The notes under the pieces: generated by a model | Seen by the model: only the letters and a program-made list of their open reading frames with translations | What the model was told of the DNA's origin: nothing | Database searches by the model: none | Position numbers and translations under genes: made by a program | Shown: positions 2,099 to 28,144 of the stretch, one piece after another | Layout: each line of letters opens with the position of its first letter | Position numbering within the stretch: the stretch's first letter is position 1 | Source: a virus | Length of the DNA stretch: 33,294 nucleotides | Strand: one strand, 5' to 3' | Virus record (IMG/VR): IMGVR_UViG_3300034374_007877 | Coordinates: 1 to 33,294 of that record

Positions 2099-2755
2099 TT
2101 AAGCCCCAAAATCAAATATAGATGTTTGAGCTGTATGGTTTTTAATTCTTTTTATTGCTGCATTATAATAATCTTTGTCTAATTCACAGGCTGTTAATTC
2201 AAAGCCTCTATTGTGACAAGCTAAAGCAATAGAGCCACTACCTAAGTGAGTATCTAATATTTTATCTCCATCATTTGCGTATTTATCTAAAAGCCAGTTA
2301 TAAAGTTGTCGAGGCTTTTGTGTTGGATGTATTCTTGTTTCTTTGTTTTTCATATCTTGCTGAAGCATACCGTTCCACCTCCATTTAAACTTTCTTGTTA
2401 CATCAGAAAAAGAATGGTACGCTAATTCACAATCTGAATAAACACCCGTATTATCTTTATCCCAAACTATCCTTCCAGCACCTAAATAAATTTCATAATA
2501 ATTAACACCCCATATTATTTGATTTTTGCTTACTCTTTTAAGTTCAGTAAAATATTCATTTGTAGGTACGTTATTATTTAGTGTTTTTAGGTTTCCATTT
2601 CTTTTTACTTTACTTGCATTATCACTTGCCGCAATTACAAATTCATTTTTATAAGGTGGGTCAACAATAGCTAAATCAAAATAGTTATCTGGATAACGTG
2701 CCATTAATAGCATATTATCTTCGTTTGTAATTGTTATTTTATCAGTTACTTTCAT
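2099..2755 (-). CDS. DNA adenine methyltransferase, beta-class (copy B)
   Basis: A 218-residue paralogue of the gene 10 nt downstream. Residues 1-35, through DPPY, differ at a single position from copy A, and the C-terminal third, with the same DTHLGSGS SAM-binding motif, is also nearly identical. Residues ~36-115 differ strongly, including around the WGVN and WDK landmarks, as expected if the two enzymes recognise different sites. The pair shares an exact 39-nt DNA match (2298-2336 with 1623-1661). The start overlaps the end of the upstream HTH gene by 14 nt, so the genes are co-transcribed. Function is inferred as anti-restriction methylation of phage DNA. Confidence 0.93.
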   Translation of the reverse strand: MKVTDKITITNEDNMLLMARYPDNYFDLAIVDPPYKNEFVIAASDNASKVKRNGNLKTLNNNVPTNEYFTELKRVSKNQIIWGVNYYEIYLGAGRIVWDKDNTGVYSDCELAYHSFSDVTRKFKWRWNGMLQQDMKNKETRIHPTQKPRQLYNWLLDKYANDGDKILDTHLGSGSIALACHNRGFELTACELDKDYYNAAIKRIKNHTAQTSIFDFGA

Positions 2756-19070: not shown

Positions 19071-20873
19071 TTAATAGTTTGTTGTTACACTCATAAATGT
19101 GTCTATTGCTGACAATTCAGAAGCACTCAAACTTGATGAACTTGATACTAATATTTTATTGTAGCTTTGTGAATTGTAAACAGCACTTAATCTCTGTAAA
19201 CTTCCTAATGTTAAATTATCCCTGCCTGTTATGTGTCCAAAACCTTTTCCATCATCAGTCCCTGTAAACACAACATTTGTTTCTGTATTGCCGTTTAAGT
19301 TTATAACGTAAGGACTACCACTATTATTCCATTTAAACCAACATCTAAAATTAGATCCACTTACAACTGCGTTTGTACTTTGTATTTTTCTATTATTCGC
19401 TGCAATATTTACTTGAATATAAATAGTACCATTTGAATTAATACCAAAAATTATATAAGTGGTATCTATTGAACTGTCGGCACTTGTAATAAAACTTTGA
19501 GCTGTACCATCAAAATAACCATTATAAAAAAAATATCCACTTGTATGATTTAATAAATCACTTCCAACTGCATTTTGAAATCCATTTGTACCATTAAAAT
19601 TAACATAACTTGTAGCTATTATTGGCTTAAATGCTTGTGTTGATTGTGCAAATTCAAAAGCATTTGGGCTTTTATCTAAAGACAAAGAACGCAAAGCCGT
19701 ATTTTTAGGAATATATAACTTTAAATCTGTTATTGATAAAGGATTAAATTCTACCGAAATACCATTGGATGTTGAAGATGTAGCTCCTACTGTATTAGTA
19801 GCTGTTACTTCACAAGTTATTGATGTTCCTATATCTGTTAATGTTGTTAAATAAGTGCTATTAGTTTCGCCACCAATAGAAACCCCATCCCTTTTCCATT
19901 GATAAGTATAAGTTGTTGTTGCGTGTGTTATCCAAGTTCCGTTTGTTGTTGTTAATGTTTGATTTTGATAAGCATTACCACTCACTAAAGGAGCAACCGT
20001 ATTAGTTGGAGAAACTCTTAAATCTATATCTATAACAGATGGATATGAGGTTGTTGTACCTAAAATATTAGTAATATCTATATCGGGTAATACTAATGTA
20101 TCCCCACTACCTACAGTATTAGTATAGGATAAATTTGAGTTTTCTACTGTAGCATCAGAGCAGATACCTGTGATTTGTGTTCTCTCTGCTACTATATTAC
20201 TCCATCCTGAGCCTCCCGAACTATCAAAAGCCCTTACCCTATAATAATATATTAAATCTGTAGTTACTCCTGTATGGCTATAACTCTCTGTATCTGTAGC
20301 ATTAGTTACTAATAAACTCCATCCATTATCTATATTATTAGTATATTCTACCCTATAACCTGCATTACCTGTTACCCTACTCCATGTTAAATCTATCTGA
20401 GTAGTACCATTATCTGATGCAGCTAAATCTGTTATCCTTGTTAAATCTCCTGATATTTGAGCTAAATAATGCTCTAATACTATAGTTTTAACTATTCTCG
20501 TACCTGTTTTAGTAGGTACTTTATCTGTACTATTATCTAAAAGCCTATTAGTTACTACCCTAAAGTTATCTGATGTAAAATAGGTATCATTATGTAACAA
20601 TTTTAATATTTGGCTACCTATATTATCACTATCTGCAGAGCCTCCTACAGCATTAGTATATTTAGTAATAACCATTAATGTAATAGTAGCTACCCCATTA
20701 AAATTATCTTTACAGCTATCCTCTTTAAAATCAAAATCAGCAAAGTATATAAATGGAGTATCCTCATCAGCCTTTACTACATCATATACATTAACAGTAG
20801 TAGCATTTAATGTTATACTACCCTGTAAAGCTGTATAATACTCCTCCCTTAATTCATTATAGCTATCTATCAT
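19071..20873 (-). CDS. Tail terminator fused to FN3, Ig-like and lectin-like domains
   Basis: A 600-residue chimera. Residues ~1-138 look like a tail terminator (DUF3168/gpU type: LREEYYTALQGSI, DTPFIYFADFDF, ISGDL) and sit exactly where that gene belongs. Residues ~140-235 form an FN3 domain (QIDLTWSRV..AGYRVEYTN..YYYRVRAFDSSG). About 290-380 is an Ig-like repeat (TYTYQWKRDGVSIGG..). The last ~215 residues resemble a LamG/ConA-type fold (LTLGSLQRLSA, EL SAIDTFM). CpG counts jump inside the gene near 20200, so the Ig and lectin part appears to have been acquired. The fusion would put adhesin domains at the head-tail junction. Confidence 0.75.
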   Translation of the reverse strand: MIDSYNELREEYYTALQGSITLNATTVNVYDVVKADEDTPFIYFADFDFKEDSCKDNFNGVATITLMVITKYTNAVGGSADSDNIGSQILKLLHNDTYFTSDNFRVVTNRLLDNSTDKVPTKTGTRIVKTIVLEHYLAQISGDLTRITDLAASDNGTTQIDLTWSRVTGNAGYRVEYTNNIDNGWSLLVTNATDTESYSHTGVTTDLIYYYRVRAFDSSGGSGWSNIVAERTQITGICSDATVENSNLSYTNTVGSGDTLVLPDIDITNILGTTTSYPSVIDIDLRVSPTNTVAPLVSGNAYQNQTLTTTNGTWITHATTTYTYQWKRDGVSIGGETNSTYLTTLTDIGTSITCEVTATNTVGATSSTSNGISVEFNPLSITDLKLYIPKNTALRSLSLDKSPNAFEFAQSTQAFKPIIATSYVNFNGTNGFQNAVGSDLLNHTSGYFFYNGYFDGTAQSFITSADSSIDTTYIIFGINSNGTIYIQVNIAANNRKIQSTNAVVSGSNFRCWFKWNNSGSPYVINLNGNTETNVVFTGTDDGKGFGHITGRDNLTLGSLQRLSAVYNSQSYNKILVSSSSSLSASELSAIDTFMSVTTNY

Positions 20874-21373: not shown

Positions 21374-21686
21374 TAGTAGCAATAATTATTAAATACTGAT
21401 CCCTCTCCTGCCAATTTTCAACTGAGTTAATTTTATATACTTTACTATCCCATGTTAAAGTAAAATCATCTATATCTGTTATAGTAAACTCCTTAAATCT
21501 AAATTTAAAACTTACTGCATCCTGTAGATATTCTCTACCCTCCTCAGTAACCCCATTAGCTGATAGGTTTTTAACCTCAGCCCTAAAAGTGCCTATAGTA
21601 GTATCTGAGGATGTAAAACCTCCTTTACCATCAGATGTAGTAGATAACTGTTTTAAAGTAATAAATTCTCTATGCTTTCTACCCAT
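21363..21686 (-). CDS. Head-tail adaptor / head closure protein (SPP1 gp16-like)
   Basis: A 107-residue protein. It has the short beta-barrel pattern of head-closure proteins: ITLKQLSTTSDGKGGFT, FRAEVKNLSANG, then FTLTWDSKVYKINSVENW, YLIIIATNES. In the family it closes the connector after packaging and provides a dock for the neck and tail. Its ATG shares a base with the stop of the connector gene at 21686. Gene order strengthens the call. Confidence 0.8.
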   Translation of the reverse strand: MGRKHREFITLKQLSTTSDGKGGFTSSDTTIGTFRAEVKNLSANGVTEEGREYLQDAVSFKFRFKEFTITDIDDFTLTWDSKVYKINSVENWQERDQYLIIIATNES

Positions 21687-22297
21687 TATAATTTAATGTT
21701 TTTATAAGGCTCTAACAATATTTTAGCATCATTAGGTATTAAGTTATCTGTAATACTCATACCTGTATCTCTATAATCATATAACCTTAAAACTACCCTT
21801 TTAACTGCATCTATAATAGGCTCAGGTATATCAGTACTATCATCCCCATAACCTGCTACATAAGTTACCTGTAATTGATAATCATTTAATATATCTCTTA
21901 CTGTATGCCCTGCAGGTAAATATGTATTCCCTGCAAACTCTATATATTTATCATTAATACCCTTAACATAATAATCATTATTAACTGTTAAAGTAGTAGA
22001 GTTATTATCATAACTAATCTGCTCTACAGTAGTAACTGACTGTATAGGAGCATGAGGTAAATCTACTAAACCTGAGTAGCTTTTATAAAATACTTTTAAA
22101 GTTTGACTAATTAAAGCCCTATTTAGATACTCCTCTATTAATTTAGTAGCAGTAGTTACAAAAGCAGCTATTAATGTATCATCTGTAGCATAGCCTACCT
22201 CCAAAAAAGTTTTCATATCTGCAGTACTTACTACAGGATTAACAGGAGCAGAGGTAACAGATATTTCATGGAAAGTATTTACATTAAAATTAGGCAT
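21686..22297 (-). CDS. Head-tail connector protein (gp6/gp15-like)
   Basis: A 203-residue protein. The early VSTADMKTFLEVGYATDDTL, the LIEEYLNRALISQTLKVFY helices, PHAPIQSVTTVEQI and a C-terminal helix VKRVVLRLYDYRDTG match the phage gp6-like connector family, which forms a ring under the portal. It overlaps the small upstream gene by 8 nt and continues the usual portal-capsid-connector-closure-neck order, interrupted here by the sugar-enzyme island. Confidence 0.85.
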   Translation of the reverse strand: MPNFNVNTFHEISVTSAPVNPVVSTADMKTFLEVGYATDDTLIAAFVTTATKLIEEYLNRALISQTLKVFYKSYSGLVDLPHAPIQSVTTVEQISYDNNSTTLTVNNDYYVKGINDKYIEFAGNTYLPAGHTVRDILNDYQLQVTYVAGYGDDSTDIPEPIIDAVKRVVLRLYDYRDTGMSITDNLIPNDAKILLEPYKNIKL

Positions 22298-22490
22298 CTT
22301 TAGTATCCTTATTAGTTTTTAATTGTTTTGTTTTTTTCTCAGTTTTCTCCTCTTTAACCTTAACAGTAATAGCCTCAGCCCTCCCTATTGAGATTAAATA
22401 TTTAGCCTGAGCCTCAGATATATCTACTTTATCCCCTGCTTTAGCTACACTATTTTTTTGTACTAAGTCCGTTTTTAGTTTTACTAACAT
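22290..22490 (-). CDS. Small Lys-rich head-region protein (paralogue B)
   Basis: A 66-residue protein. The core KAGDKVDISEAQAKYLISIG, flanked by a strand VKLKTDLVQKN, resembles the core of its upstream neighbour (KAGDTAFIPENAAKVYEG). Similar mini-proteins with a K-x-G-D...A motif occur next to connector genes in many phages. The C-terminus is very basic (KEEKTEKKTKQLK). It overlaps the upstream gene by 41 nt and the connector by 8 nt. The function is unknown; capsid decoration or assembly are possible. Confidence 0.6.
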   Translation of the reverse strand: MLVKLKTDLVQKNSVAKAGDKVDISEAQAKYLISIGRAEAITVKVKEEKTEKKTKQLKTNKDTKDA

Positions 22491-22698
22491 TTGTTTTAGT
22501 TTTAGGTTTTATAGGCTCAGCTTTAGGCTCTGCCTTTTTAGTTACTTTTTTAGGTACTACTTTACCTATAGATAGCCTTTTACCCTCATATACTTTTGCA
22601 GCATTTTCAGGTATAAATGCAGTATCTCCTGCTTTATAAAATTTACTATCTACTGATGTAGGTTTAAAAAAAGTTACTTCTATTTTATTATTTGCCAT
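22450..22698 (-). CDS. Small Lys-rich head-region protein (paralogue A)
   Basis: An 82-residue protein. The N-terminal half (IEVTFFKPTSV, YKAGDTAFIPENAAKVYEGK) is a small beta/helix domain related in pattern to the next gene; the C-terminal half is an extended Lys/Pro tail (KKVTKKAEPKAEPIKPKTKT) that looks disordered and could bind DNA or acidic surfaces. It lies directly downstream of the sugar-enzyme island. No characterised family is recognised. Confidence 0.6.
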   Translation of the reverse strand: MANNKIEVTFFKPTSVDSKFYKAGDTAFIPENAAKVYEGKRLSIGKVVPKKVTKKAEPKAEPIKPKTKTNVSKTKNGLSTKK

Positions 22699-22704
22699 CT
22701 TATA

Positions 22705-23667
22705 TTATTTTTTATCAAAGATAAGGTTTTTAATAAAGGCTTTAAAATTGTCTTTATCTCTCTCTATTTGTTGTAATAAAAATAGCCTTTGATTAATTGC
22801 CCTACCTCTATAATGATCAATATTATTATCTATCCATCTAATACCTTTAACCCATGAGTTAATATTATTCCTATCTTTTACAGGCTCTCCTGCATTACCT
22901 ACTACCTCCTCTAATGCTGTATTAGTATCTGAGTATAGTACAGGTATCCCATAACCTATACTCTCTGCTGCAGTACGTCCATAGCTCTCATAATTAGATG
23001 GCATAATAAGTAATTTAGTATCCTTATACACTTTACTCATATCCTCCTGCTGAGGTAGTACCTTTACATTTTTAGGCTGATGGGTAAACTGTTTAGCATA
23101 ACCCCCTGTAATAGCTAAAAAATCATACTCAGGTAGGCTCTCTGCTATCTGTTTTAATAATAACCCTCCTTTATTCTCATTTAGATTAATCATAGTAATA
23201 TATTTACCATTAGAGTTAAATGATGTATCTAATTTTAGTATAGGTCTTATTAATGCTGATTTGTTACCTGTAAAATCTGCAGCTATCCTATGCTCTGTAA
23301 AATAACTGTTATAAATTACTCCTATCTCCTTACGTGCCTTAGCTAATACTGATCCATTAGTATTATGCATATAGATACAGATAGGTACTTTATTCATTTT
23401 AGAGTAGTTAACTGCTTTACCTTGTTTACCTAAATGAGTAAAAACTACATTAGCCCATTTATAATGATGCTGTAAAGGTACATCAGTATTATCCTCACTA
23501 TATAAATCTATATTATTAAAACTATTTTTATTAGTTCTATCTGCTATAATCCTAACATTATAATCCCCTGTACTTTTAAGATACTCAGCAAAATCCTGAG
23601 CCGTTTTCTCTCCCCCTGATAGTTGTACATCTACATATAAAGGTATATGAAATAATATATTAATCAT
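22705..23667 (-). CDS. GT4-type glycosyltransferase
   Basis: A 320-residue GT-B glycosyltransferase. The C-terminal half contains KDTKLLIMPSNYESYGRTAA and ESIGYGIPVLYSD, the E-x7-E nucleotide-sugar motif of family GT4, preceded by YITMINLNENKGG. The N-terminal half has a GGEKTAQ loop. Such enzymes transfer sugars from NDP- donors. It overlaps the GT2 gene by 4 nt. In context it would add a sugar to a glycan built by the island; acceptor could be capsid, tail, DNA or a host glycan. No membrane segment is evident. Confidence 0.85.
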   Translation of the reverse strand: MINILFHIPLYVDVQLSGGEKTAQDFAEYLKSTGDYNVRIIADRTNKNSFNNIDLYSEDNTDVPLQHHYKWANVVFTHLGKQGKAVNYSKMNKVPICIYMHNTNGSVLAKARKEIGVIYNSYFTEHRIAADFTGNKSALIRPILKLDTSFNSNGKYITMINLNENKGGLLLKQIAESLPEYDFLAITGGYAKQFTHQPKNVKVLPQQEDMSKVYKDTKLLIMPSNYESYGRTAAESIGYGIPVLYSDTNTALEEVVGNAGEPVKDRNNINSWVKGIRWIDNNIDHYRGRAINQRLFLLQQIERDKDNFKAFIKNLIFDKK

Positions 23668-24362
23668 TCTATTTGCCCCTTTTCAAATTTATAAATACTT
23701 TTTTCATTACTTACTAACCCTTTTCGAGCATAACCTAAACTCTCATACTCATCCTGCCTACTCCATGAGCTACCATCTAAATTAGTATTACCTATCCCCT
23801 TAATCCTATAAGCAGCAAAGCCATGATTTTTAATAGCCTTTCTTTGATAATCTTGAAAGCCGAAAAACCTTTTATTTGCTACCATCTTTTGAGGATATGC
23901 CTCTACTCTATGGATACCTAAAGAGGATGTAAATAAATGCTCCTCTACTGTTATAGCAGGATGTATATAAGGCATATTAAAACACTCCTCTACCATCATA
24001 CTACAGGCATCAGGATATTGCTCCATTAACTTAACCATTTTATCTATTATACCATCAGGCATTAATATATCATTAGCCATAGCATAAACATACTCAGCAT
24101 TAACTGAACGTGCTAAATCAAAAGCATTATTTAGCTGCCATATACTATTACCTACCTTTTGCTGTTCTATTACAGTAGCCCCCATAGTACTATTAATATA
24201 CTCCCATGTACCATCTGTAGAGTTATCATCCCCTATATATAATATGCTTTTATTCTTAGCATTTTTAACCTCATTAATAACCTGAGGTAAAGTTATTTTA
24301 CAATAATCTAACCTATTATGAGATGGATATGATACTACTACCTTTATATTATCTTTTTTCAT
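23664..24362 (-). CDS. GT2-type glycosyltransferase A
   Basis: A 232-residue GT-A glycosyltransferase. The start KVVVSYPSHNRLDYCKITLP and IGDDNSTDGTWEYIN fit the GT2 nucleotide-binding half; YVYAMANDILMPDG holds an ND in place of the usual DXD metal motif. The enzyme lacks membrane helices, so it is probably cytoplasmic. It is flanked by overlaps of 4 nt with GT4 and 14 nt with the acyltransferase gene, so the enzymes are co-expressed. Confidence 0.8.
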   Translation of the reverse strand: MKKDNIKVVVSYPSHNRLDYCKITLPQVINEVKNAKNKSILYIGDDNSTDGTWEYINSTMGATVIEQQKVGNSIWQLNNAFDLARSVNAEYVYAMANDILMPDGIIDKMVKLMEQYPDACSMMVEECFNMPYIHPAITVEEHLFTSSLGIHRVEAYPQKMVANKRFFGFQDYQRKAIKNHGFAAYRIKGIGNTNLDGSSWSRQDEYESLGYARKGLVSNEKSIYKFEKGQIE

Positions 24363-24987
24363 TTTCTTTTATTTCTACATATCTATTATACCCTATATTA
24401 TTTGGCTTTGTTTTTTCTGTAGGAGTACCTACCCATATCCAAAAATCATCCTCAGGTAATATCTCATCAGTATAGTTATCTTTCCAAAAGCTATTTGCTC
24501 CTATCATACTACCCATAGGTATCCAACTCCTCTGATGTACTGATGCATTTAACCCTAATGTTACAAAAGCCTCCATAAATGTATTACCTCCTATAGCTAC
24601 ATTACAGCCTATAGTACAGTTATCCATAATTTTACAGTCATGCCCTATATGAGCATTTTTTAACATTAGTATATTATCTTTTAACAATGTTTTAACTACA
24701 TTACCCCTATCTATAGTAACCTGCTTAGATAATCTATTATTATTACCTATAACTACCCCTGATACTACATCAAAACAGCCTACTTTTTCAGGATCATCCC
24801 CTATTATACAGCCTATCCCTATATAATTATTATCTCCTATAGTTGTACCTGATTTAATAACAGTATAAGCCCCTATATAATTATCTGAGCCTATTATTAC
24901 CTCATCCTCTATTATAGCAGTACTATGTATTTTATTACCTTTCTTATCAAATAAATATATATTATTTGTGTCATATAAATTGCTCAT
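24349..24987 (-). CDS. LpxA-like left-handed beta-helix acyltransferase
   Basis: A 212-residue protein with hexapeptide repeats throughout (IIGSDNYIGAYTVIKSGTTI). VTIDRGN and NAHIGHDC match LpxA, including the catalytic-position histidine (H116 within residues 111-118; LpxA has NAHIAHDC). It is shorter than LpxA (about 260) and lacks its full C-terminal helical domain. It may acylate an amino-sugar nucleotide used by the flanking glycosyltransferases. It could be a sugar N- or O-acyltransferase rather than a lipid A enzyme. It overlaps the next gene by 14 nt. Confidence 0.8.
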   Translation of the reverse strand: MSNLYDTNNIYLFDKKGNKIHSTAIIEDEVIIGSDNYIGAYTVIKSGTTIGDNNYIGIGCIIGDDPEKVGCFDVVSGVVIGNNNRLSKQVTIDRGNVVKTLLKDNILMLKNAHIGHDCKIMDNCTIGCNVAIGGNTFMEAFVTLGLNASVHQRSWIPMGSMIGANSFWKDNYTDEILPEDDFWIWVGTPTEKTKPNNIGYNRYVEIKENEKR

Positions 24988-24988
24988 C

Positions 24989-25282
24989 TTATAAAGGTTT
25001 AAAGAAATAATTAATAATAACTTTTAGCCTATCTACTAAAGTATATTTTTGTTTAGGTACAGATGCTACATTTTTAGATAGCCATTTAGTAAACCTTTTA
25101 CGCTGCCCTGTTTGTTTTATAAATAGCTCATACATGGTTAATAGCTCTGTATGGGTTTGTAATTTAGCCTCCTTACTTATGTTTTCTGTATGAGGTTTAT
25201 GTTTACCCTTTAACTGTTTTAACCTCCTATTATAAGCCCTTTTACTTATAGGGTTATTCTTTTTTTTATCTTTATTTGCCAT
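24989..25282 (-). CDS. Small basic hypothetical protein in glycan island
   Basis: A 97-residue protein. The first ~45 residues are very basic (MANKDKKKNNPISKRAYNRR onward) and the C-terminal half is helical with a hydrophobic end (VDRLKVIINYFFKPL) that might attach to membranes. It lies one base from the acyltransferase and the GT2 gene, so it is part of the island. No family is recognised. It may be a targeting or scaffold factor for the glycan enzymes. Confidence 0.5.
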   Translation of the reverse strand: MANKDKKKNNPISKRAYNRRLKQLKGKHKPHTENISKEAKLQTHTELLTMYELFIKQTGQRKRFTKWLSKNVASVPKQKYTLVDRLKVIINYFFKPL

Positions 25283-25283
25283 A

Positions 25284-25979
25284 CTATTTATTATTTAAGT
25301 TAAATATATTTTGATCATACAATTTGTTAAATTTCTTAACACTATCTACACAATATGCAAAATAGGTTTTACTATCTAAATTCTTTTGAGTTTGTTGTCC
25401 TAAATGCTCTATCTCAGCACTCTTTACTAATCCATGCCTCAACCCTGCAGCTTTTAACTGCTCTACAGTTTCATTATCAGCACAATAAAAAGGGCAATTA
25501 GTTTTTAATTTACCTATTCTATTATAGGCATACCTTGTTAACATAAATCCCCATCCTGTAAAATGAGTACCTACATTATATGATAACATTACCCCTCTTT
25601 TATTTTTTGTATAGCTATGGGCTACAGGGCATATAGCAGATGAACTATGCAAAGTATGTTTTTTACTCATTAGTATTAGCTCATCTAATGCACCCTCTTT
25701 AAATATCAAATCAGAGTTAGCAAAATATAAGTAATTACCTGTAGATACATCTGCCCCTGCATTTAATGAGGCATTATAATTAAAAGGCTTAGGCTGTTTT
25801 ACTTTCTTATCTATTAAAGTAGTAGCTAAATTAGGTACAGTATGAGCAGCATCATATACTACTATTACCTCTAAATCTGCTTTAGTTGTATATATTGCAC
25901 TCTCATAGCACTCTGTTAACATATCTATATTAGCCTGAGTATCCCCCTTATGTACTATTATTAAACTGATTTTATCCAT
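25284..25979 (-). CDS. GT2-type glycosyltransferase B
   Basis: A 231-residue GT-A enzyme (ATG at 25977-25979). MDKISLIIVHKGDTQANIDM and the later YLYFANSDLIFKEGALDELI show the GT2 nucleotide- and metal-binding pattern (NSD for DXD). GWGFMLTRYAYNRIG and CADNETVEQLKAAG fit the acceptor region of rhamnosyl-/hexosyltransferases. A longer start at 26003 overlaps the newly found zinc-ribbon gene; the chosen start follows that gene's stop by one base and begins at the conserved strand. Confidence 0.8.
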   Translation of the reverse strand: MDKISLIIVHKGDTQANIDMLTECYESAIYTTKADLEVIVVYDAAHTVPNLATTLIDKKVKQPKPFNYNASLNAGADVSTGNYLYFANSDLIFKEGALDELILMSKKHTLHSSSAICPVAHSYTKNKRGVMLSYNVGTHFTGWGFMLTRYAYNRIGKLKTNCPFYCADNETVEQLKAAGLRHGLVKSAEIEHLGQQTQKNLDSKTYFAYCVDSVKKFNKLYDQNIFNLNNK

Positions 25980-25980
25980 T

Positions 25981-26160
25981 TTATCTGCTTTCCTGAGTAC
26001 CATGATGTAATATATTACTATGTAGCCCCACTAATTTTAATTTACCCTTACATTTAGGGCATTTAGTTTTATCCTTGTTTTTTTCTGTAGTACTTATATG
26101 TAGTAAAGTATTTTCATTACATTCTACATTTAGGCACCAATAGTTATATGTATTAATCAT
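25981..26160 (-). CDS. Small zinc-ribbon protein
   Basis: A 59-residue ORF, ATG at 26158-26160, TAA at 25981-25983. It contains two cysteine pairs, C9-x4-C14 (WCLNVEC) and C34-x2-C37 (CPKC), separated by 19 residues, the layout of a zinc ribbon. It overlaps the upstream GT2 stop by 8 nt and ends one base before the ATG of the next enzyme, so it fills an otherwise empty 150-bp gap with perfect operon spacing. It may bind nucleic acid or protein partners of the glycan genes. Function is not known. Confidence 0.75.
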   Translation of the reverse strand: MINTYNYWCLNVECNENTLLHISTTEKNKDKTKCPKCKGKLKLVGLHSNILHHGTQESR

Positions 26161-26782
26161 TATCCTCTGATTTTAATAAACTTTCTTTTATTTCTTTTGG
26201 TAGAGTTTCACTATTAGCATGATTACAGTTATACCTATATAAAGTATAAGGTATTTTGTACTCTGTTTTAATTTGATTTAATACCTTTTTAGCCCATTTC
26301 TCATCCTCTCTAAATGATATATCCTCATATCTATTTAAGGTTACTAAATGGCTTTTAAATAACATTAAATGGTTAGGTATTCTAAGGTATCTATCCTTTA
26401 AATTTTGGTCTTTTAAATAGTCTTTACTATAATATACATCCTTAGGCATACCTCCATTAATACTAATCTCTACTTTAAAAGTATATACATCCATATTAGG
26501 AGCTGTATCAATAGCATTTAATAAATGACATAAATAAGTATCAGATACACTATCATCATCATCTATAAAAGATATATAATCTCCTGTACTGCAGTTAGCT
26601 AATCTATTCCTTTTAGCTCCTACTGTTAAGGTTTTAAAATCTCCTAAATATAATATCTCTACTCTATCCTGATACTCTTTAGTAAGTTTATTGTATTGAT
26701 TTTCTAAATCCCATAGTACATCTGCTAAACTATCCATTCTTTGAGGTAGTGTACATATACAAATACTTATTTTATTGCTCAT
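26153..26782 (-). CDS. GT2-type glycosyltransferase C
   Basis: A 209-residue GT-A enzyme. It starts KISICICTLPQRMDSLADVL, has VGAKRNRLANCSTGDYISF and then the acidic DDDD metal-binding motif of GT2, and ends with an acceptor-side region (FREDEKWAKKVLNQ). It is the first gene of the island, about 20 nt after promoter P3. The leader lacks a Shine-Dalgarno sequence, as elsewhere. With two more GT2 enzymes and one GT4 it suggests a short oligosaccharide. Confidence 0.85.
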   Translation of the reverse strand: MSNKISICICTLPQRMDSLADVLWDLENQYNKLTKEYQDRVEILYLGDFKTLTVGAKRNRLANCSTGDYISFIDDDDSVSDTYLCHLLNAIDTAPNMDVYTFKVEISINGGMPKDVYYSKDYLKDQNLKDRYLRIPNHLMLFKSHLVTLNRYEDISFREDEKWAKKVLNQIKTEYKIPYTLYRYNCNHANSETLPKEIKESLLKSEDND

Positions 26783-26796
26783 AATGTTTTATTTGA

Positions 26797-26815
26797 TTTG
26801 CTCCCTACAAATATA
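26797..26815 (-). promoter_or_regulatory. Late promoter P3 (TATATTTG) upstream of glycan island
   Basis: The minus strand reads TATATTTGTAGGGAGCAAA, identical to P1 at 18 of 19 positions, including the likely transcription start and early leader. A TTTTTTG stretch lies about 15 nt upstream and could act as a -33 element. It lies right after the terminator at 26832-26865 and in front of the glycosyltransferase genes. Confidence 0.7.
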
Positions 26816-26831
26816 GTAAAATATCTTATAC

Positions 26832-26865
26832 AAAAAACCCCCTACAAATAGTAGAGGGCTTTTTT
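26832..26865 (-). terminator. Leftward terminator after major capsid gene
   Basis: As minus-strand RNA, CCCUCUAC pairs with GUAGGGGG around a 5-nt loop, with one U-G pair; a one-base bulge is followed by A6/U6 pairing and the U tract. It lies between the capsid stop (26906) and P3 (26815), so it would separate high-level capsid transcription from the glycan island and downstream genes. Confidence 0.8.
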
Positions 26866-26905: not shown

Positions 26906-28144
26906 TTATGCTGATCCTAATGCTAATGCATTTGAAAAATCTCCATAAACAAAAGCCTGAGTATTATGGATAGGCAGAGCTACTCTCTCCTCAGCCATAA
27001 CTGTTACATTACCATCAATAAAGTTAGTAGAATGTTCAGAGCTAAATGATACGTTTACATCCTGTCTAACAGCTAATGTAGCCCCTAATCTAAAATCTCC
27101 TACAAAAAACTCATCAGATGTTACTGCAGTACTCTTAATAACAGGTACTCCATTTACAGTTAACATACCTCCCGATAAAATTTGAGCAGGATAGATAGGC
27201 ATACCATTATCATCTTTCTCTGTAGCTAACAACATATAGTCGGTAGGGTTTACAAAGATAGCATTAGGTACATACTCATTATTATAAGCATTAGTTAAAG
27301 CGTTAAATAATACATCAAATCTATTTACTTTACTATCAGCTAATAAATCACTATAAGCAGATGCATTTACAGATAAACCTGAGATATTAGCTCCTGCTCC
27401 TGTACCATGTAGAATTTGATCATCCTCCTCTTTTAACAATTTAGAGAATAAACGTGCATTAATATAACCTGCTAAAAATGGAGTATCCTCTAACATTTCT
27501 TTACTCATAGTCATATAAGTAGCTATAGATTTTACATTAGCAGTTTGCTCTGTTAAATCAAAATCAGATTGACCTGCAGCACTTCCCTCTGCTTTAGCAG
27601 CAGTACCATCATCAAAAGCAGTCTCCTGAATATATCTAATACTACCTGCAGTAGTAGGTATTACATTCATAAAGTTTCTGATGTTTACTGCTCTATCAGG
27701 GTTAAAATAAGTACCGTTTAACAACTGAGTAGCAGCTACATCATTTGTATAGGTATTAGCCTGAGTCATATCTCCTGCCTTAACAGATAAAGATACTTTA
27801 CCTTGCCCATCTACAGATAATTGCTTTAACTCTGCAGCTTTTTCATTTGCTGCCTCTAAGATTAAACCTTTACGGCTAACTACTTTGTTAGAGCCTTTCT
27901 TTTTTAACTGTACATCTAACTCATCAGCATGAGCCTGAGCCTTTTTTACTAAATCCATTAACTCTGAGCTACTTTTTTTATGCTCCTCATTAATTGCATT
28001 TAATTCTTTTTTAATTTCATCAGTAGATCCTGCATATTTTTCTACAGCCTCTATCTTATCTGATAAACTTTTCATGTTAGCCTCATGAGTATCTAACTTA
28101 CCGTTGATACCATCTGCTAAACTTTTTACATCAATTTCTGACAT
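26906..28144 (-). CDS. Major capsid protein, HK97 fold
   Basis: A 412-residue protein. Residues ~1-95 are charged and heptad-rich (DKIEAVEKYAG..EIKKELNAINEE), a scaffolding delta domain usually removed by the prohead protease. The rest has HK97-like landmarks: RNFMNVIPTTAGSIRYIQET, ANVKSIATYMTMSKEMLEDT, LLKEEDDQILHGTGAG, and IFVNPTDYMLLATEKDDNGM. It follows the protease by 25 nt. Its coding sequence uses GAA for Glu more often than many neighbours, perhaps a sign of high expression. A strong terminator follows it. Confidence 0.93.
   Translation of the reverse strand: MSEIDVKSLADGINGKLDTHEANMKSLSDKIEAVEKYAGSTDEIKKELNAINEEHKKSSSELMDLVKKAQAHADELDVQLKKKGSNKVVSRKGLILEAANEKAAELKQLSVDGQGKVSLSVKAGDMTQANTYTNDVAATQLLNGTYFNPDRAVNIRNFMNVIPTTAGSIRYIQETAFDDGTAAKAEGSAAGQSDFDLTEQTANVKSIATYMTMSKEMLEDTPFLAGYINARLFSKLLKEEDDQILHGTGAGANISGLSVNASAYSDLLADSKVNRFDVLFNALTNAYNNEYVPNAIFVNPTDYMLLATEKDDNGMPIYPAQILSGGMLTVNGVPVIKSTAVTSDEFFVGDFRLGATLAVRQDVNVSFSSEHSTNFIDGNVTVMAEERVALPIHNTQAFVYGDFSNALALGSA

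Follow-up and report, generated by a model that had tools for sequence, protein, structure and literature searches.

We propose that a set of glycan enzymes encoded between the capsid and connector genes of this phage would glycosylate the capsid and/or tail-tube protein in the cytosol late in infection, building a short glycan that is acylated here and perhaps methylated in a relative (L002), a reading to which we assign a probability of roughly 0.75. Virion glycosylation, the function favored in the earlier note, thus stays in the leading position, and it rests on homology with the glycosyltransferase (GT) cluster of mycobacteriophage Che8 and on the recurrent placement of related enzymes behind the capsid gene in relatives (designated below by L numbers). 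The window, i.e., the whole stretch of DNA analyzed, is a virus record of 33,294 bases from a small AT-rich tailed phage, for which public phages gave no close match at the DNA level. Its leftward late operon comprises TerS, TerL, portal, MuF-like protein, prohead protease, HK97-type capsid, the island, connector, and tail genes (Table 1).

Table 1. Features of the capsid–connector junction and its borders, in window coordinates.
Feature	Position	Strand	Remarks
HK97-type major capsid protein, candidate acceptor	26906..28144	-	PF05065 E 4.9e-39, phrog_10
Intrinsic terminator of capsid gene	26832..26865	-	Conserved with and without GTs
Possible -7 promoter box TATATTTG	26808..26815	-	Similar element at same place in L002
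GT-a, GT2/GT-A-fold, Che8 gp108 homologue	26153..26782	-	PF00535 E 1.9e-7
Zinc-ribbon protein, 59 aa, overlapping annotated GT-b start	25981..26160	-	Counterpart in L002
GT-b, GT2	25284..26003	-	PF00535 E 6.2e-9
Basic protein, 97 aa, net charge +19	24989..25282	-	Conserved in L002
LpxA-like left-handed beta-helix acyltransferase without LpxA C-terminal domain	24349..24987	-	PF00132 E 3.2e-18
GT-c, GT2	23664..24362	-	PF00535 E 1.6e-9
GT4 with E-x7-E motif	22705..23667	-	PF00534 E 1.5e-11
Two small ORFs between island and connector	22450..22698, 22290..22490		
Head-tail connector, far junction border	21686..22297	-	PF05135 E 6.7e-10, phrog_442

The ORFs and family profiles bore out the gene list that had been proposed for the capsid–connector interval, namely three GT2 enzymes, one GT4, an LpxA-like acyltransferase, a basic protein, and a zinc ribbon. 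The island ORFs are contiguous and leftward over 22705-26782, and the zinc ribbon is an additional small ORF. All three GT2 proteins exceeded the Pfam gathering score of PF00535 (23.3 bits), and the GT4 scored 44.6 bits against a gathering score of 26.4 bits for PF00534, with both Glu residues of the E-x7-E motif invariant in three members. Neither the zinc ribbon nor the basic protein reached a family cut-off in the profile search, and both have counterparts in L002, whose GT-b homologue also indicates that the real start of GT-b is probably the Met at about 25979. Transmembrane segments were absent from every island protein (maximum 19-residue hydropathy of 1.24), and no gene for nucleotide-sugar synthesis was seen; the enzymes therefore most probably work in the cytosol on nucleotide sugars of the host. 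The composition of the island resembles that of the rest (GC3 of 0.200 vs. 0.199; CpG observed/expected of 0.08 vs. 0.13 in the other late genes), which upholds the previous statement that there is no sign of recent acquisition and agrees with a long residence of the island.

The closest functional parallel is found in mycobacteriophages. The virion proteins of Che8, Corndog, and Myrna are glycosylated, and Che8 gp110 and Corndog gp38 are needed for it, according to a passage of PMC12363180 citing Freeman et al. 2023; the glycans lie at the C-termini of the capsid and tail-tube proteins, according to a passage of PMC12619734 citing the same work, and these virion glycosylation clusters (Freeman et al. 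2023) also appear in a passage of PMC11600133. GT-a shares 33% identity over 186 aa (E 5e-26) with Che8 gp108, which opens a run of three neighboring GT genes at the far end of the Che8 genome. The tblastn matches of GT-a in public phage genomes, 57 records, all belonged to Mycobacterium and Gordonia phages. The AlphaFold2 model of GT-a, built from 34 sequences, reached a mean pLDDT of 96.6, and the residues invariant across these sequences include K57, R58, D74-D77, H138, E159, and D160. Within a viral library, Foldseek matched the model to an enzyme of Gordonia phage Sixama (TM 0.88) and, third-best, to the Che8 enzyme (TM 0.87).

The mycobacteriophage clusters (Che8 gp108-110, Corndog gp38, Myrna) resemble the island in having GTs in a row, one GT-a homologue, and a tailoring enzyme, there a methyltransferase, and the Corndogvirus Dylan carries methyltransferase and GT genes within its head operon. 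The window differs from them by its LpxA-like acyltransferase, its GT4, its AT-rich and different lineage, and its capsid–connector placement. As in those systems, a GT cluster is present, with four GTs above the Pfam cut-offs and the motifs kept in GT-a and GT4, and GT-a itself provides a homologue of a Che8 cluster member. No island protein had a phmmer match (E <= 0.01) to Che8 gp110 or Dylan gp35, in a search for a homologue of the needed GT; because nothing in the island matches gp110, the window does not duplicate the Che8 set. By analogy its enzymes probably work like those of Che8, as a candidate member of that system.

Other phages present parts of the same arrangement. The Omegavirus island of Lucky2013/LittleE (gp15-gp21) occupies the same place between capsid and head-tail adaptor; the GT-a homologue gp15 (40% identical) is the first gene behind the Lucky2013 capsid, the island with its four GTs extends to the adaptor, and gp17 contains a GT-b homologue. 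It differs in that gp17 has a fused methyltransferase, in its kinase-like gene, and in having no annotated acyltransferase. The Gordonia phage proteins JonJames gp27, Yvonnetastic gp25, and Mareelih gp91 unite GT-a and GT-b homologues in one polypeptide; unlike the window enzymes these are fused, and their genes precede those of the terminase or follow the adaptor, not the capsid. GT and methyltransferase gene pairs also occur in the head or head-tail operons of Cellulophaga phage phi18:2 (L110 1614-3286) and Pseudomonas phage PP9W2 (L111 7076-8471), neither pair matching the window enzymes at the threshold used.

The tree of 38 GT-a sequences paired the window with L002 (100/99) and grouped the window, L002, L003, L088, L007, and L012 at 89/84, under the strict threshold, while Lucky2013 and Che8 fell in a separate actinophage group (95/95). 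This grouping suggests that GT-a is likely old in the window's lineage and that the junction placement in Lucky2013 was probably arrived at separately, both tentatively in view of the long branches. We also considered the Lucky2013 island as an inherited copy of the window island; this is not favored, its GT-a homologue falling with the actinophage enzymes.

The relatives present the junction in several states. In L002, whose capsid is 70% identical to that of the window, the capsid gene is followed by GT-a (50%), the zinc ribbon, GT-b (65%), the basic protein (48%), GT-c (58%), a methyltransferase-like protein (without a family match, and with a Rossmann-type motif recognized by eye), and the beginning of GT4. 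In L003 (capsid 47%), GT-a comes immediately after the capsid gene and is truncated by the contig end. An LpxA-like fragment, GT-c (58%), GT4 (39%), and a small ORF precede the connector in L086, the capsid gene of which lies beyond the contig end. Single enzymes stand between capsid and connector in L087 (GT4; capsid 43%) and L088 (GT-a; capsid 34%), and in L089-L092 (capsid 33-36%) the interval is taken up by a PD-(D/E)XK_5 gene and small ORFs instead of GTs. The question of whether the island is always at this site in relatives is thereby answered in part: related enzymes are there in L002, L003, L087, and L088, and L086 has them beside the connector, but L089-L093 have no GT there. These comparisons of gene order identify the junction as an accessory-gene site at which glycan enzymes occur in sets of one to five, and the enzyme set looks old, modular, and swappable. 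L012 and L007, seemingly placed in the head region, were left out of these counts because their neighbors match no family, and PF05065 was found in only six of 50 contigs with GT-a relatives, so that adjacency to the capsid is not countable widely. The endonuclease-like genes at the GT-free junctions lie at 9937-10311 in L089 and 10681-11070 in L092.

This variation bears on a reading in which the enzymes serve some other cytosolic target, be it a host protein, a small molecule, or only a minor tail fiber, and lie behind the capsid gene just because insertion of accessory genes is tolerated there. The unrelated cargo taken up by the junction, such as the endonuclease-like gene of L089-L092, would suit it, yet GT families recur at the site across deep divergence (capsids 34-70% identical) and GTs occupy the same place in a separate phage group, that of Lucky2013, and we regard this reading as improbable. 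Two further points weigh against glycosylation of the virion: GT-a relatives are also found far from capsid genes, and soluble GTs could serve a lipid-linked or other cytosolic acceptor. The distant GT-a relatives are often part of larger clusters of GTs and methyltransferases in phages whose capsids are of another kind; such large clusters were seen in metagenomic phages including L013, L014, L055, L059, and L070, among others, some with two GT-a-like copies. Finding the island elsewhere in relatives, which had been put forward as a refutation, would not refute virion glycosylation, because the homologous Che8 enzymes themselves sit at the far end of the genome.

The best NCBIfam model of the acyltransferase was LpxA (E 9e-30), with 103.6 bits against a curated cut-off of 226, and its best PDB sequence matches were LpxA-type enzymes. 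With the left-handed beta-helix common to both, it differs from the LpxA UDP-GlcNAc acyltransferase in scoring far under the cut-off and in the absent C-terminal domain, the match stopping at position 175 of the 264 in the model; on both counts it does not qualify as the LpxA of the lipid A pathway. It carries the motif NAHIGHD, which resembles the LpxA motif NAHIAHD. Because its fold is that of the LpxA family and the histidines of the motif are retained, acylation of a sugar by this protein is plausible. The best LpxA-like match in "phage" records, MT835680, was discarded as a bacterial-looking stretch with, by eye, an LpxB-like neighbor.

Taken together with the GT2 and GT4 enzymes, this protein resembles a surface-polysaccharide gene set, and the GT-A glycosyltransferases that the GT-a model matched in the PDB include besides a Leptospira GT the wall and O-antigen glycan enzymes TarP, TarS, and the fucosyltransferase WrtF. 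The island might then alter a host surface glycan (LPS, capsule, or other envelope polysaccharide), for example blocking superinfection or releasing progeny from the receptor, with the LpxA-like protein acting on a lipid-linked or nucleotide sugar. Against this stand the location in the head operon, the closest phage relatives, which belong to virion glycosylation clusters, and the single-enzyme versions at the same site, which could hardly convert a surface polysaccharide. The island has no flippase, polymerase, or membrane-anchored GtrB-type enzyme; with no transmembrane segment in its proteins, it lacks the membrane flippase and membrane-anchored transferase of an O-antigen conversion module (gtrABC). 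We consider an action on the host surface unlikely.

A still smaller chance falls to glycosylation of the phage DNA as a protection against restriction. Phage GTs acting on DNA are known (Pyle et al. 2024 is cited in a passage of PMC12619734), and the two N6/N4 DNA methyltransferases of the window imply that the phage faces restriction. This reading is nonetheless very improbable, given that the placement in the head operon speaks against it, that the acyltransferase would be without a clear role, and that a scan of window proteins, in a record that may be incomplete, turned up no enzyme for making a hydroxylated or otherwise primed base.

Under virion glycosylation, the soluble island GTs would work while heads and tails are being assembled, transferring sugars from host nucleotide sugars to a structural protein of the virion and building a short glycan on it. 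The most likely acceptor is a virion protein synthesized over the same period, above all the major capsid protein, with that of the tail tube as a further possibility; candidate benefits would be masking, adsorption, or stability. Because Gordonia phages fuse both homologues in one protein, GT-a and GT-b probably cooperate, and they would form one acting pair, with GT-c and GT4 as a second linked pair. The LpxA-like enzyme may add an acyl group to one sugar; in its part of the cluster, L002 has the methyltransferase-like protein instead. The occurrence of GT-a alone in L088 and of GT4 alone in L087 suggests that either could start on the protein in its own phage. Gene content, homology, retention of the catalytic motifs, conservation of the position, and modular gain and loss are observed; enzyme activity, late expression, acceptor, glycan structure, and order of steps are what we infer.

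In alignment, the last 13 residues of the capsid, YGDFSNALALGSA, were identical in the window, L002, and L003, which makes the capsid C-terminus a suggested candidate for the glycan site. Capsid sequences terminating in GS occur in Che8, Dylan, Mareelih, Fryberger, phiGD23-1, and L088, and the final residue of several tail tubes is S. A C-terminal Gly-Ser acceptor motif specific to GT-bearing phages is undercut by HK75 and Redi, in which SGS closes the capsid sequence and the region read contains no GT; defined after looking, the idea is suggestive only.

The control elements credited to the island in the earlier note were confirmed in part. The proposed terminator is a strong hairpin with a T-run (about 26832-26865; -21.1 kcal/mol, z -4.8, none of 200 shuffles equally stable), missed by the pattern scanner probably owing to an A/T tract that lengthens the stem. 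A hairpin 3' of the capsid gene was present in nine of the ten members compared (the window, L002, L003, L088, and L089-L093; absent only in L087), with two such hairpins in L002, against a background of 0-4% of 180-nt segments of the same contigs. Five of the hairpin-bearing members (L089-L093) have no GT at the junction, and the HK97-like phage HK75 has an annotated terminator at the same place behind its capsid gene. Because these GT-free phages carry a terminator there, it is part of the control of the capsid gene, and a terminator specific to the island is ruled out.

The late promoter fared less well. The motif TATATTTG is present at 26815-26808, but a promoter is not confirmed: the distance to the upstream TTG is only 15 nt, below the usual range for such promoters, and TANNTTTG occurred in the window at chance level (54 found vs. 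48 expected). The box could be of the Bacteroidota -7 type. Alignments of the capsid and GT-b against genome_contigs, run to trace the host, found no relative. The promoter before the island is thus a weak motif, unproven as a promoter.

As far as we found in the literature, virion glycosylation in tailed phages has been demonstrated in a few mycobacteriophages. The kind of modification is therefore already known, and what is new is its acylating, modular, and swappable version at the capsid–connector junction. More tentatively, and at rather less than even odds, the junction of this lineage may be a hot spot for glycan kits in which sets of one to five soluble GTs and tailoring enzymes (for acylation in the window, for methylation in L002) are swapped. 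Each phage would then bear a capsid glycan decorated in its own way, one of these being an acylated virion glycan undescribed in the literature found. If glycosylation holds in this lineage, the one-enzyme sites (L087, L088) compared with the multi-enzyme sites (window, L002) would make the acceptor and the order of assembly tractable, capsid glycan coats would be suggested as widespread and exchangeable, and phage GT genes currently labeled moron or auxiliary genes would gain a candidate function.

Elsewhere in the window, the two DNA methyltransferases belong to the same family (PF01555) and are adjacent, apparently as a tandem pair (1424-2089 and 2099-2755, minus strand). CpG observed/expected is 0.15 across the whole window, a strong depletion that is mildest at the left end near these genes. 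A tail-region protein (12526-13737, minus strand) contains a concanavalin/laminin-G type lectin domain (PF13385). The 600-aa protein at 19071-20873 (minus strand) joins a tail-terminator domain (PHROG 176, residues 4-128) to fibronectin type III (PF00041) and further C-terminal domains, and its probable counterpart in L087 is a stand-alone protein of 143 aa.
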